In this document: piece by piece, positions 13,501 to 58,300 of the stretch
Layout of the letters: each line of letters opens with the position of its first letter
Numbering within the stretch: the first letter of the stretch is position 1
Source of the DNA: Epinephelus fuscoguttatus
Lineage: Eukaryota; Chordata; Actinopteri; Perciformes; Serranidae
Reading direction: 5' to 3'
Length of the DNA stretch: 64,000 nucleotides
NCBI RefSeq assembly: GCF_011397635.1
Contig: NC_064756.1
Span: forward strand, 19,894,907-19,958,906
Notes under the pieces: generated by a model
The model's database searches: none
What the model was told of the DNA's origin: nothing
Seen by the model: only the letters and a program-made list of their open reading frames with translations
Position numbers and translations under genes: made by a program

Positions 13501-15727
13501 GTCGAGGCATACTGTCATTAATCTGCAGCGGCCTCACTTTTCCCTAATCGGCTCTGATTCCTGCTGAATCAGCACTACCGACTCGCCTCAGCTCTGATTA
13601 GATTTGATGGGGCTTAGAGCATTTATTCACTCCTCTCTGAACAACATGGCCGCACCACGCACCCCACCGGGTATGTTGTGCAGTGTCACTCCCATCCAGT
13701 GGAGGGCAAACTTGCCATGTTAGACTGGGACACAGACTGGGGATGAATGTGATAATGTGATTACAATCAATCTTTAATCAGTTTAATATGAAATGAATCA
13801 GATTTCCTGTGTAGGGTAAGTGCAGTATAAACAAAGCAAGTCTATGAATAAGACAGAATTCACTATAGAAAAACTCCGGTCACCTGTTTAATTCCATTTT
13901 AATTTTGACTTGAGGGATGAACGATATTGGGATTTTTGCTGATATCCAATATGCCACTTTTCTAACTCATTTTGGCTAACTGTCAATGCCGATAAATACT
14001 AATATTTTTTTCCCATCCAATTGTAGAAAGCATTAAGACTCTCCTGTCCGGAAATTACCATATAATTATGCCTACTCTTAACATGATGGCCGACTGGCAG
14101 AGGCAGACATTCAATGCCTTTCAAAATGTACACATCCACTAGGGAAATAAGAAAACTACTTCAAATTTATCCAGCTTTAACAGACAATTCTGACAACAGC
14201 CACAACCAAGCCAAGTTTGACCTATTTCGACAACTTAAGTCACAGAATTAAAGCATTATCTTACCGACCCGTCATATTGACAGAGAAGTCATTTCAGGGT
14301 GTTATATATAATTAATTTCAAAGTCTTTAGCTATCAATACTGATGATATGCCGATACTAGACTCTTGTGATCCTCTCTCCACTCCAGCACACTGGCATCT
14401 ATCCGCTTGTTTCCAAGAGCATGAGGCGCATCGCAGAAGGCAAAGACCCAGTCGAATGGCAAATGCATACATGTGGTATGGCCAACATGTTCGCCTACCA
14501 CAGCCTCGGCTATGACGACCTGGACGAGCTGATGAAAGAACCACAACCCCTCTACTTTGTCCTTGAGATGCTCAAGGTGAGGAAGTACATAGACAACCAA
14601 GATTCATGAGGATCTGTGTCAAAGGGAAGCTTCCCCTGTGAGGACGTTCAAAAACTAACTCACTATATACACTGTGTGATTGACAGGTGCAGCAGCCTAG
14701 TGAGTATGACAGGGAGACGTGGGCTTTGAGTGATGGGGAGAGGCTGAAGGTGGTCCCTGTGCTGCACGGCCAGGGGAACAAGCTCTACAAACAAGGACAT
14801 TACCAACTGGCCGGACAAAAGTACAAGGAGGGGATCATCTGCATCAAGAACGTTCAGATGAAGGTGATTACGGCAAACTAGTGGTGCAAAATTAAGTTTT
14901 ATTTGCTTCTATAAATCAGTATGCATAGATGTTGATCTGAGCTGCTTTCCTCTTAAGGAGAAAGCATGGGAGGCCCCGTGGTTGAAGCTGGAGAAGATGG
15001 CCAACACCTTAACCCTCAACTACTGCCAGTGTCTACTGCGCATGGAAGAATACTACGAGGTTATTGAACACACCAGCGACATCATCAACCAGCACCCAGG
15101 TTTGGCACTTACTGACGTAGACTGATGTGATGTGTGTGACTCTGTCATGATGGAGTGAGGGGCTACATAGACATTTCTAAAGCAGAAAAGGTTTTCTTTG
15201 CTGAGTAGATTACCATCTTCCAGATAGTTGATATATTGTGAGTGTGAACTGTCTTGCTGTACAGCTCTAAACAAGCTGGGTATGCTCTTGCATCATTTAT
15301 GGCAGCTGTGAATGTATGTTTCATGTGACTATGAAAGCCTGACCCTATAAAAAGGTCTGGTGCCTGCACTTCAGCATGTGTATGTGTTCACAGATGCTCA
15401 TGTGACTTGAACAAATTTGTAAAAGGCTGATAGAATTATCCAGTTAAGAACATCTTGCACACACTCGAGCTGCAGATGTCTCTCACATGATTGGAGGCTG
15501 TCAAACATGTTCGCATTTGTCCTCCAGGTGTCGCAAAGGCCTTCTACCTGCGAGGGAAGGCGCACATGGAAGTGTGGAATGAGGCGGAAGCTCGGCAGGA
15601 CTTCAGCAGGGTGCTGGACCTGGAGCCCGGCATGAAGAAGGCCATCAAGAGGGAGCTGGCTGTGCTCAACATGCGCATGGAGGAGAAGAACCAGGAGGAC
15701 AGGAATAAATACAAGGGCATGTTTTGA
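10587..15727 (+). CDS. aipl1: AIPL1, aryl hydrocarbon receptor-interacting protein-like 1
   Basis: Six exons assemble without frameshift: 10,587-10,691; 12,598-12,777; 14,388-14,576; 14,687-14,863; 14,958-15,099; 15,528-15,727 (330 codons plus TGA). All introns are GT-AG; only the fifth interrupts a codon. Residues 1 to about 165 form the FKBP-like domain ([36 protein letters not shown]). Residues about 175-310 form the three-TPR region ([34 protein letters not shown]). EFWCDTIHTG and the N-terminus favour AIPL1 over its paralogue AIP. In vertebrate photoreceptors AIPL1 works with HSP90 to fold and assemble phosphodiesterase 6 and binds its prenyl group; human loss causes Leber congenital amaurosis. 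The protein ends soon after the last TPR with KYKGMF, without the proline-rich tail of primate AIPL1. The ATG at 10,587 is the only one giving the conserved N-terminus and an in-frame donor. A fish-specific a/b duplicate cannot be excluded. Confidence 0.95.
11150..11655. repeat. GACCAAGAC-rich repeat in AIPL1 intron 1
   Basis: Two blocks (about 11,165-11,280 and 11,515-11,655) are built of variants of GACCAAGAC and GACCAGAACC. The right block ends in CTTGAGTACTACAACACTGG, which looks like an element terminus. A TAGG tetranucleotide tract sits between them at about 11,345-11,368. Likely one degenerate transposon; ends are approximate. Confidence 0.4.
13915..14361. mobile_element. hAT-like element abutting AIPL1 exon 3
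   Basis: The block starts with GAACGATATTGGGATTTTTG and CTGATATCCAATATGCC, and ends with ATCAATACTGATGATATGCC followed by GATACTAG. These GATAT-rich ends resemble a teleost non-autonomous hAT-type family. The end lies about 26 bases before the exon 3 acceptor, so the element makes up the 3' part of intron 2. Target duplication not identified. Confidence 0.45.
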
Positions 15728-15874: not shown

Positions 15875-16244
15875 ATGATCCTGTTTCACTGAATCAGGAA
15901 GTTATACATATATAATCCCCTCTCTGTTTGCCCTCTTTTCCGTTCCTCTGCACCATGAATGAGACAACCTATTAAATTTCACTCTCATAATCTTACTTAA
16001 ACAAGTATTTCATTGCTGGAAAGATGGTGTCTTCATAAAACGGGTCTATGCAGTAGAAAGACAGAAGTACTCGAAATCAGTGTTACATGACCAGAGAAAA
16101 ATACACAGCAATAAACGCTGGTCCATATCTTACCTGCTTAGTTTTACTGTGTGATCTCAGCATTTTCAGCCTCTCTTTCTACAATACAGGAAACAGTGTG
16201 GCGCCCACTTCCTACTCACAAAGTCAGGTATTATAGCCATAAAG

Positions 16245-16823
16245 TACCCTGGAAATCCAGAGTTCTCGCGAGAGCACAATTTGAATTTGCTCAGCGAGTC
16301 ACTCTGGCAATCAGTAATGATGCTCATTACCCATGCCCTTGGAGCCGATCTGCACCAATCACATCAGTGTATTTGATATAGGCGGGCCAGAGGCGAGCTA
16401 AACAGATGACGACAGCGCTGTGACGACGAAGTCTGGAATCAGTCAGTAAACACTGCAAGATGGCTACAGATGAACACCAGTTGTTTGAAACAGCTTTGGC
16501 CGCTACAATGGATGAGTTAGACTTGGCTTTTTCTCTAAAAGAGGAACAGAAGACGGCATTCAAGTCTTTCCTTTGCAAGAAGGACGTTTTTGCTGTTTTG
16601 CCAACCGGATATGGCAAGAGTCTAATCTACCAGTTAGCTCCGCTGGTAGCTAAGCTCTGGATACGTCACCCCGTGTATTGTTCTGATTGGTCGTAGTGTT
16701 ATCCAATTGCGTGCAGTGATATTTACAAACGCATGCTTGGTGCCGCCCCTCAAGTTGGGCCATTTTCATTACTCATGGCAAGACCTTAAATCTTTCTAGA
16801 TTTGGGTCTGGATTTCCAGGCTA
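16245..16823 (+). mobile_element. 579-bp TIR element with RecQ-helicase fragment, copy 1
   Basis: The terminal inverted repeats are TACCCTGGAAATCCAGA (16,245-16,261) and TCTGGATTTCCAGGCTA (16,807-16,823), a 17-bp pair with one mismatch. The 9-bp sequence GCCATAAAG flanks the element on both sides (16,236-16,244 and 16,824-16,832), so this is a genuine insertion. Inside lie ATGACGACAGCGCTG, then a 78-codon open frame starting a RecQ-like helicase, then CCAATTGCGTGC near the right end. A second copy of nearly equal length is at 45,506-46,083. No transposase is present. A 9-bp duplication fits Mutator-like elements, but the superfamily cannot be assigned from this. Confidence 0.85.
16460..16696 (+). 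pseudogene. Truncated RecQ-like helicase start inside TIR element
   Basis: The 78-codon frame begins MATDEHQLFETALAATMDEL and contains SLKEEQKTAFKSFL, which resembles the Q-motif region of RecQ helicases, then the Walker A-like block VLPTGYGKSLIYQLAPLVAK. After that the helicase similarity stops abruptly and the frame runs out in unrelated residues. None of the later helicase motifs (DEAH box, motifs II-VI, RQC) is present, so no active helicase can be made. The fragment is probably what is left of a long ORF in an autonomous parent element after internal deletion. It could be transcribed from the conserved leader before the ATG, but nothing here proves expression. Confidence 0.75.
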
Positions 16824-16984
16824 GCCATAAAGTGCACTAAAATAATTTTCTGAAAACATTTCAGGGGAGAATTAGACACTACAGTAACATTATCTTGGTT
16901 TATATTTGATCAGCACTGCCTCAGTTTGATCTGAGTTTCAGAGAGAAAGGGAGCAGCCGTTCAATCCGCTTTTATACTCTGTGT

Positions 16985-45505: not shown

Positions 45506-46083
45506 TAACCTGGAAATCCAGATGCCCCGCCCCTAGCACATTCGAATTTGCACTGCACTGGAATCCGGCCCCGACGAGCAGAGCCCACTGAATCGCCAAT
45601 CGGACCAATCAGATCAATCTATCTGACGGAGGCGGGCTCTGGGCGGGCGTAACATGATGACGACAGCGCTGCGCTGTGAGAGTCAAAAAGTAAACAGCCA
45701 AGATGGCAGCTGCCGAAGGACATGTCCATTCAATTTATATTTGGAAGAAACGCTAAGCCAACTACACTTATCTTTTTCCTTGAGAGAGGAACAGAAGACT
45801 GCCCTAGAAGCCTTCGCTTCCAGGAAGGAAGTTTTTGCTGTTTTGCTGACGGGATATGGCAAAAGCATAATATATCAGTTAGCCCCACTGGTCGGCAAAC
45901 AAATGGGGCTTAGTGCAATGAATACGTAACCTTGTTTTTTGCTCTGATTGGCCATCGTGCTATCCAATTGCGTGCGGCGGCATTTGAAATGTCTGAGTCA
46001 GTGCTGCCCCTTGCGTAGGAAGGATGTATCGGTGAGGGCCAGACTCAAAATCTTTCTAGATTTGAGTCTGGATTTCCAGGCTA
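45506..46083 (+). mobile_element. 578-bp TIR element with RecQ-helicase fragment, copy 2
   Basis: Ends are TAACCTGGAAATCCAGA (45,506-45,522) and TCTGGATTTCCAGGCTA (46,067-46,083). The 9-mer CTGATATTC flanks both sides (45,497-45,505 and 46,084-46,092). Internal order matches copy 1: ATGATGACGACAGCGCTG, the AAGATGGC start, helicase fragment, CTCTGATTGG, CCAATTGCGTGC, and AAATCTTTCTAGATTTG before the right TIR. Exact target duplication at two unrelated sites confirms a mobile unit. Confidence 0.87.
45703..45929 (+). pseudogene. Frameshifted RecQ-like helicase start, copy 2
   Basis: The ATG corresponding to copy 1 is at 45,703 (MAAAEGHVHS), but that frame soon diverges and stops. The helicase text continues in another frame: EETLSQLHLSFSLREEQKTA, then FAVLLTGYGKSIIYQLAPLV and GKQMGLSAMNT. 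Compared with copy 1, the Walker A-like block has L for P (LLTGYGKS) and a few more helicase-like residues (QMGLS) are kept before the break. It is non-functional. Confidence 0.7.
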
Positions 46084-50284: not shown

Positions 50285-51220
50285 AAACTAGAATTACCAC
50301 CTCGCAAATATGTGTTTCCACAAACAAGTCAAGTTGGAGTTACAGTTTACATCTATGTCTGTCCAGACTGATCTGTAGCCATGACAGTGGACAGTGGTTC
50401 AAATATGGATGTTGATGCAAAAAAGCTACATATTCTAAAACATGGATGCTTCACACACACCTTCACCCCGGCAGCACAGAAGATCTCTACTATTAGCACA
50501 ATTTCAAGGTGGAACACCCAAGAACAGTGTCATCAATCAAATATCCGACCAAGTATCTCCCCTTGTGTTCCCTGAGTTATGGTGTTGAATAATGGCCAGA
50601 GAAGGGTTTTCGCACAACATTATGATGTCACAGTGAAAATGACCTTTGAACTTTTGGATATAAAATGTCACTTATTCTTAATTTTATCCTATTAGACATA
50701 TGTGTGAAGTTTGTCATAATTAGTCCAACAATTTTTAAGTTAAGGCCAAAAGCATGTTTTGGGAGCTTTGATCACCAAAATCCAATCAATTCATTGTTGT
50801 GTCCAAGTGGACGTTTGTGCCAAATCAGAGAAAATTTCCTCAAGGCCGTCTTAAGACATTGCATTCATAAGAATGGGATCAATGAGAGGTCATATTGACT
50901 TTGACCTTTGACCACCAAAATCTAATCTGTTCATTCTTAAGTCCATGTGGCTGTTTGTGCCAAATTTGAGGAAATTCTCTCAAGGCCTTCAAAAGACATT
51001 GCATTCACGGGAATGAGACAGCTGAGAAGTCAGTGACTTTGACCTTTGACTACTAAAATCCAATCAGTTCATCCTTGAGTCCATGTGGCTGTTTGTGCCA
51101 AATTTGAGGTATTTCCTCCACGCCTTCTTCAAATAAGCCGTTTACAAATATGGGACAGACAGACAACCTGAAAACATAATGCCTCCAGCCACAGCTGTTG
51201 GCGGCATGGAGGCATAAACA
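50285..51220 (+). repeat. Interspersed repeat with 3 x ~139-bp internal tandem units
   Basis: The left part has AGAATTACCACCTCGC and TCTATGTCTGTCCAGACTGA. Three units follow, each with GACCxxxAAAATCxAATCxxTTCAT and TGTTTGTGCCAAAT, anchored near 50,771, 50,911 and 51,049. The right end is CATAATGCCTCCAGCCACAG, CTGTTGGCGGCATGGAGGC ATAAA. This arrangement is a recurrent teleost repeat with an internal minisatellite. TTTGACCTTTGAC recurs at unit borders. Confidence 0.65.
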
Positions 51221-55300: not shown

Positions 55301-58300
55301 TATGTGATCAGTCAGTGAACCGTTGTTTAAAAGTGATCCAGGAGTGGTCTCAATTTGTCAAATTTTCAAGTGAAATCCAATTATATTTACATAACCAAAA
55401 CCCCAAACCAATAATTCTGCCTCAGAGGGTTTTACAATCAAAATTTACGACACCCTCCTCAGATAAGAAAAACCCCATAAAAAAATAACCTCTAACATAA
55501 AAAAAACCCCCAACTTATTAAAAAAGTAATTCTGTATAAGAGCCACCTTAGCATTTATTTCAAGGTTGTTCTGTGTTATGAGATGCACCACAGGGAAATG
55601 GAAATTAGAGTTGTCAGCAAAGGTCACCACAGGAAGAGGACACTCCATAGACATTAAAAAGTTGGGTACTTTTCATTTTAATATCACCTCACAAAGCAAA
55701 TCCTGGAAGCAGGTAAAAAAAAACCCCAATCTTTTAACCTGTATTCAAAATGCAGGTGGAGAGAGATATGGAATATACCATTTCATTTATTATTTATTAT
55801 TATTATTATCATCTCATTTGAGGACATTGGGACTTTATTATCGTCTCGTTTGAGAACATCAGGACTATTATCATCTCGTTTGAGGACACTGTGACTTTAT
55901 TATCATCTCGTTTGAGGACATGGGAACTTTATTATCATCTCGTTTGAGAACACTGTGACTTTATTATCGTCTCGTTTAAAGACATTGTGACTTTATTATC
56001 ATCTCGTTTGAGGACATCGTGACTTTATTATCGTCTCGTTGGAGGACATGGTGACTTTATTATCATCTCGTTTGAGGACACTGTGACTTCATTATTGTCT
56101 CGTTGGAGGACATTGTGACTATTATCGTCTCGTTTGAGAACATCCTGACTTTATTATCGTCTCGCTTGAGGACGTTGTGACTTTATTATCATCTCGTTTG
56201 AGGACATCGTGACTTTATTATCGTCTCGTTTAAGGACATTGTGACTTTATTATCGTCTCGTTTGAGGACATCGTGACTTTATTATCGTCTCGTTTGAGGA
56301 CATTGGGACTTTATTATCGTCTCGTTGGAGGACATTGTGATTTTATCGTCTAGTTTGAGGACATTGGGACTTCATTATCGTCTAGTTTGAAGACATTGGG
56401 ACTTTATTATTGTCTTGTTTGAGGACGCTGGGACTATATTATCGTCTCGTTTGAGGACACTGCGACTTTATTATCATCTCGTTTGAGGACATTGTGACTT
56501 TATTATCGTCTCGTTGGAGGACATTGTGATTTTATCGTCTAGTTTGAGGACATTGTGACTTTATTATCGTCTCGTTTGAGGACATCGTGACTTTATTATC
56601 GTCTCGTTCGAGGACACTGGGACTTTATTATCGTCTTGTTGGAGGAAATTGTGATTTTATCGTCTCATTTGAGGACATTGGGACTTCATTATCGTCTAGT
56701 TTGAAGACATTGGGACTTTATTATTGTCTTGTTTGAGGACGCTGGGACTATATTATCGTCTCGTTTGAGGACACTGGGACTTTATTATCATCTCCTTTGA
56801 GGACATTGGGACTTAATTAACCTTTTAAACCTTTTAACCTATATTCAAAATGCAGGTGGAGAGAGATATGGAATATACATTTCATTTATTATTTATTATT
56901 ATTATCATCTCGTTTGAGGACATTGGGACTTTATTATCGTCTCGTTTGAGAACACTGGGACTTTATTATTGTCTAGTTTGAGGACATTGTGACTTTAATA
57001 TCGTCTAGTTTGAGGACATTGTGACTTTATTATCATCTCGTCGGAGGACATCAGGACTTCATTATCGTCTTATTTGAGGACACTGGGACTTTATTATCGT
57101 CTCGTTTGAGAACACTGTGACTTTATTATCGTCTCGTTCGAGAACACTGTGACTTTATTATCGTCTCGTTTGAGAACACTGTGACTTTATTATCGTCTCG
57201 TTTGAGAACATCAGGACTATTATCATCTCGTTTGAGGACACTGTGACTTTATTATCATCTCGTTTGAGGACACTGTGACTTTATTATCGTCTCGTTTGAG
57301 AACACTGTGACTTTATTATCGTCTCGTTTGAGAACACTGTGACTTTATTATCATCTCGTTGGAGGACATTGTGACTATTATCGTCTCGTTTGAGGACATG
57401 GTGACTTTATCATCATCTCGTTGGAGGACATGGTGACTTTATTATCATCTCGTTTTAGGACAATGTGACTTTATTATCGTCTCGTTTGAGGACATTGGGA
57501 CTTAATTATCCTCTCATGTGAGGACATCAGGACTTAATTATCATCTGTTTGAGGACATTGGGACCTGATTATCATTGACAGTGTTTTGTTTTTTATACTT
57601 ATGTGGTCCTACTGCTCCCAAATAGTTAGGAGAAAATTAAAAATGCATACCAAACAAAAGTTCAGGTCTCAGGAGGATAATATTTTGAGGGTTAGGATGA
57701 AGAAATGCAATGGTATAGGCTGGTTTTAAAAGGGAGGGAAAATGAGCAATTACATGAAAGAAAGGAATGAAAATAAGGGGAGAAATACCACACAGCATCA
57801 TCCACCATTTCAGAGACAAATTCTACCAGTTAGACCGCTGCCCAAGCCAATCTCTGGGTAAGCATAGCTTACAAGATGTAAGGACTGGAAATGGAAAAGG
57901 CAACAGTTGAAAGAGGACCAGGGGAGGAAGATGACAGAAAACAGTCTGGGAAGAGGGAGGATAAATTCTCAGCCACATATTTGTCATCTGTGCAGGTCTG
58001 CAGGGAGGGAAAGGAGCAGGGAGTCGTGAGAGATGGATGGTAACTATAAATCAGTGAAGTGGGAGGGCTTATTCTGGGTACGTGACTATGCCATTCATTG
58101 TATGCACCCACGACATGATGTGACCAGCAGTTGGTGCACTTCCAAGGCTTTGACATGTATGGTACTCTTCAAGTTGAATCATCGGTACAAACAATGAGCA
58201 ATGGCATTTAAAAATTAATTGATCAAAAGGAAACAATGCTCAAAACAATACCCATAAAACCTTCGGGGAAGAAGTAAGCTGTAACTCTTGAGGAGCACTA

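Follow-up and report, generated by a model that had tools for sequence, protein, structure and literature searches.

What kind of mobile element carries the start of a RecQ-like helicase between inverted ends and duplicates 9 bp of its target? This question is raised by a 579-bp element in a stretch of 64,000 nucleotides from Epinephelus fuscoguttatus (assembly GCF_011397635.1, contig NC_064756.1, positions 19,894,907 to 19,958,906 of the forward strand), referred to here as the window. Our reading, to which we give a probability of about 80%, is that a vertebrate DNA transposon of the AcademH type gave rise to this element by internal deletion, and that the element is non-autonomous. Its parts are the following:

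16245-16823, 579 bp: transposon copy with inverted ends on both sides, flanked by a perfect 9-bp duplication
16236-16244 and 16824-16832: left and right copies of the target-site duplication GCCATAAAG, a perfect 9-bp match
16245-16261, + strand: left inverted end TACCCTGGAAATCCAGA, which pairs with the right end except at one of its 17 positions
16264-16273, + strand: palindrome TCTCGCGAGA, at element position 20
16460-16696, + strand: 78-codon frame, of which 65 codons are the start of a RecQ-family helicase with the Walker A motif TGYGKS and 13 lie past the deletion junction
16650-16666, + strand: approximate place of the internal deletion, from alignment with two relatives described below (a second element in the window and the locus L005)
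16807-16823, - strand: right inverted end TAGCCTGGAAATCCAGA

An initial annotation of this DNA had given the coordinates, the length of 579 bp and the exact 9-bp duplication correctly, and GCCATAAAG stands on both flanks. It had also described inverted ends of 17 bp; the inverted ends exist, though they match at 16 of the 17 positions. The single mismatch sets TACCC on the helicase side against TAGCC on the other, and when 20 copies were compared by eye, the window copy included, the first form was present on its side in 14 and the second in 19. The 78-codon frame with TGYGKS was found as described, with helicase text that ends in APLVAK and is followed by 13 codons before the stop, and the 579-bp copy contains no transposase, as had been said.

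The same annotation had proposed a genome search with the inverted-end pattern and a collection of copies with 9-bp duplications, and both were carried out. In a genome of 1,046,998,120 bases in 26 contigs, the end sequence was found with up to two mismatches at 1402 forward and 1402 reverse sites (we have no explanation for the equality of the two counts), against 23 forward and 27 reverse sites for a reversed control pattern. A search with the whole element gave 1416 first-look candidates; the best 40 were scored, and all of them, the window copy included, showed at least 94% identity. The 20 best-matching loci, again with the window copy, form a first family, whose members differ by 1.2 to 3.8% from their own majority sequence; the largest of these differences is that of the window copy. 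We then compared the flanks of these 20 loci and of the second element in the window. The 9-bp flanks agreed with at most one mismatch in 18 of 21 pairs (exactly in 13), the pairs that did not agree being those of L015, L019 and L025, whereas none of 420 mismatched pairings agreed over 9 bp at the same tolerance. For other lengths, the count was 0 of 21 at 5 to 8 and 10 to 13 bp and 1 of 21 at 4 bp. The ends of L015, L021, L022 and L028 had been adjusted by hand because their alignments fell short. Given the excess of end sites over the control and the difference between true and mismatched flank pairs, chance is excluded, and the element at 16245-16823 is a repeat. Eight loci with exact end matches, taken in positional order along contig 1 (L001 to L008), were also inspected: by eye, three best match the first family and five a second family (one of them over 97 bases only), and only L001 and L006 have a 9-mer directly at the far end that agrees with at most one mismatch.

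Next, the coding part of the element was compared with known proteins. The 78-codon frame matched Pfam DEAD at 4e-6 (27.1 bits, cut-off 26), and the best chains in a PDB search were those of RecQ5, RecQ1 and BLM, with weak E-values from 0.0017. Judged by these matches, the frame encodes the beginning of a RecQ-family helicase, in agreement with the initial annotation. A structure predicted for the 78 residues from the single sequence had a mean pLDDT of 65.4 and a pTM of 0.47 and was set aside as too weak for use.

Two relatives of the element bear on how it lost the rest of the helicase:

45506-46083, + strand: diverged element belonging to the same group, the second in the window; its helicase-start text shows a one-base gap when aligned with L005
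45497-45505 and 46084-46092: target-site duplication of the second element, CTGATATTC, perfect over 9 bp
L005:1501-2586: related locus of greater length, containing helicase text and what looks like an intron; its right end is intact, its left end was not recognised and its frame is broken

The second element, which had been missing from the initial annotation's finding, shows 70% identity to the first over 323 columns on the 3' side, and 181 of 561 aligned bases (about 32%) differ between it and the majority sequence of the first family. Its helicase side extends about 16 bases further before the deletion; therefore, the deletions in the two families are not identical, and they may have arisen separately. 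L005, which was recovered via its right end, contains 543 additional bases at the deletion site, between parts that match the second element. This additional text reads as motif Ia, then as a stretch with a DEVH box in another frame, and then as intron-like GT...AG borders. The first 102 residues of L005 matched Pfam DEAD at 4.6e-8, and this same piece retrieved 37 PDB sequences at E values up to 0.1 (best, 1.9e-6), all named RecQ, Q1, Q4, Q5, WRN, BLM or plainly ATP-dependent DNA helicase. The suggestion of an internal deletion from a larger helicase-coding element is supported by a related copy with more helicase text at the same place.

Two further observations concern the families themselves. 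In the second family, L002 and L003, which lie about 92 kb apart on contig 1, have in common AAAACATGATCATC just beyond the right end (L002:1487-1500 and L003:1487-1500), while their sequences differ farther out and at the opposite end; neither locus showed a 9-bp duplication when one mismatch was allowed. DNA folds of 54 bases gave hairpin z scores of -4.4 (window element) and -0.2 (second element) at the left end and of -1.6 and -4.1, respectively, at the right end, and end hairpins were dropped as a shared feature since the scores are uneven between the two families.

The question of the transposon group can now be addressed. AcademH elements have terminal inverted repeats, and a full Academ-type element carries a DDD transposase. 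The paper by Kojima (2020, Mob DNA 11:15) is reportedly the one on the AcademH lineage of Academ DNA transposons. AcademH, in the account given in part of PMC10045372, encodes a helicase and makes duplications of 9 or 10 bp, while AcademX makes duplications of 3 or 4 bp, the difference being tied to the encoded helicase and nuclease. The title of the founding paper, as it appears in the reference lists of PMC10045372 and PMC10799480, places AcademH in animals and fungi. The initial annotation could not match the element to a named superfamily; AcademH, so described, combines a helicase with duplications of this length. The 9-bp duplications observed here fall within its 9 or 10 bp, and helicase coding is present as a start only in the element and up to the DEVH text, in a broken frame, in L005; unlike a full AcademH element, the window element has no transposase and is missing the greater part of the helicase. 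Since it is a helicase-coding transposon family with 9-bp duplications, the element fits AcademH, to which it would belong. Nor is the arrangement new in kind, because widespread putative non-autonomous Academ elements were noticed in a fungal genome and autonomous ones were then sought, according to a section of PMC8290104. The word Academ is absent from the main text of a review on the mobile DNA of ray-finned fish (PMC7599744), and, judged by title, none of the papers found to name AcademH concerns fish.

Overall, we propose that an internal deletion in a parent element would have spared its two ends, the stretch upstream of the start codon and codons 1 to 65 of its RecQ-family helicase, the remainder being lost. 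The short element would then have been multiplied in trans: a full-length relative would have supplied a transposase that acts on the ends of the short element and cuts the target in a staggered manner 9 bp apart. Several points weigh against the AcademH derivation. Among the loci examined, neither a transposase nor an intact long copy was found, and no genome-wide search for long copies stands behind this. In L005, the left end cannot be recognised, a stop and a shift interrupt the frame, and the DEVH piece matched Pfam DEAD at only 0.056, below the cut-off. XPB, which is not a RecQ helicase, accounts for 7 of the 43 PDB chains retrieved by the 78-codon frame at E values up to 1, all at 0.057 or weaker. 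The likeness to AcademH is drawn from descriptions in citing papers and not from published end sequences.

The helicase start of the first-family majority sequence was also compared with that of L005. Over 64 aligned codons, dN was 0.20 and dS 1.79, a result that points to selection for the helicase protein in the source elements; it implies nothing for the short copies. A further point against the proposed history is that this dS value lies close to saturation and was obtained from one damaged copy set against a majority sequence. These values bear on a different origin, in which the element would derive from a Mutator-like element (MULE) whose parent had captured a fragment of a host RecQ helicase. 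Mutator-like elements make 9-bp duplications, which suits the flanks seen here; a RecQ helicase, such as the one begun in the present element, is not known from them. However, the two families, which diverge by about 32%, both have the helicase start, with dN/dS near 0.11, and L005 carries the helicase on to DEVH text; a coding part of the parent accounts for this better than a single capture event. We consider this origin unlikely. Helitrons have neither inverted ends nor target duplications, which does not agree with the inverted ends and 9-bp duplications of the element. KolobokH elements share a RecQ helicase with the element according to part of PMC9587614, where KolobokH is reported only from fungi, and one further RecQ-coding Kolobok from a rhodophyte; the duplications of Kolobok are given there as 4-bp TTAA, which is contradicted by the 9-bp duplications of varied sequence found here, next to a helicase that starts near the left end. 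An element of this type is hardly conceivable.

A separate matter is whether the truncated helicase is kept by selection in the short copies, for example as a repressor of the parent, a role for which the KP elements of the P transposon provide a precedent. Some counts agree with this: 25 of 28 first-family rows have neither a stop nor a frameshift in the aligned part (the window copy is counted twice and L001 is partial), the two families, cut at different nearby places, retain nearly the same part, and the raw changes by codon position in the first family are 36:14:67 (the window copy again being counted twice). In addition, outside CpG, TG and CA, 4 changes were counted at the 46 second-position sites, compared with 68 at the 222 non-coding sites. 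However, the copies were picked by similarity, and raw counts tally changes shared by descent repeatedly. When variable sites outside CpG, TG and CA were counted in 19 copies, with the window copy left out, first and second positions together varied at 10 of 94 sites and third positions at 5 of 39, against 37 of 222 outside the frame (Fisher p, 0.23 and 0.64, respectively), neither difference being significant. Moreover, the second family shows 11:23:38 against L005 (five rows, one of them L005 itself), and frame-shifting gaps are present in its L002 and its window copy. We consider selection for the peptide very unlikely. Scarcely better is the chance that separate deletions repeatedly retain the promoter region together with the beginning of the helicase up to and including Walker A since this stretch aids the short copies, be it by encoding a trans-acting peptide that holds the parent in check or by serving as a promoter and binding region required for mobilisation. 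Under the AcademH derivation, the helicase fragment would be a deletion remnant, most likely without a function of its own.

The element also has CCAAT boxes and, at the start codon, AAGATGGC; together with the TCTCGCGAGA palindrome near the left end, which is absent from the second element, we take these to be promoter-like motifs. The element starts 517 bp 3' of the stop codon of a + strand frame at 15491-15727, which presumably is the last exon of an AIP/AIPL1-type gene. Elsewhere in the window, there are two tandem arrays, and neither a tRNA nor an Rfam family at gathering score was found in its 64 kb:

50766-51127: 2.6 tandem copies of a 140-bp unit, with 82% matches
55803-57573: 1.77-kb tandem array with the 32-bp unit TTATTATCGTCTCGTTTGAGGACATTGTGACT

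The element is most likely ordinary mobile DNA, and the result is mainly one of annotation, in that an element the earlier annotation could not place now has a likely name. The result also suggests that a vertebrate genome holds many AcademH-type derivatives. If the promoter-like motifs are active, the first family would have spread a small promoter across this genome, and an intact parent, if one exists, would make it possible to ask in a vertebrate what a transposon needs a RecQ helicase for.
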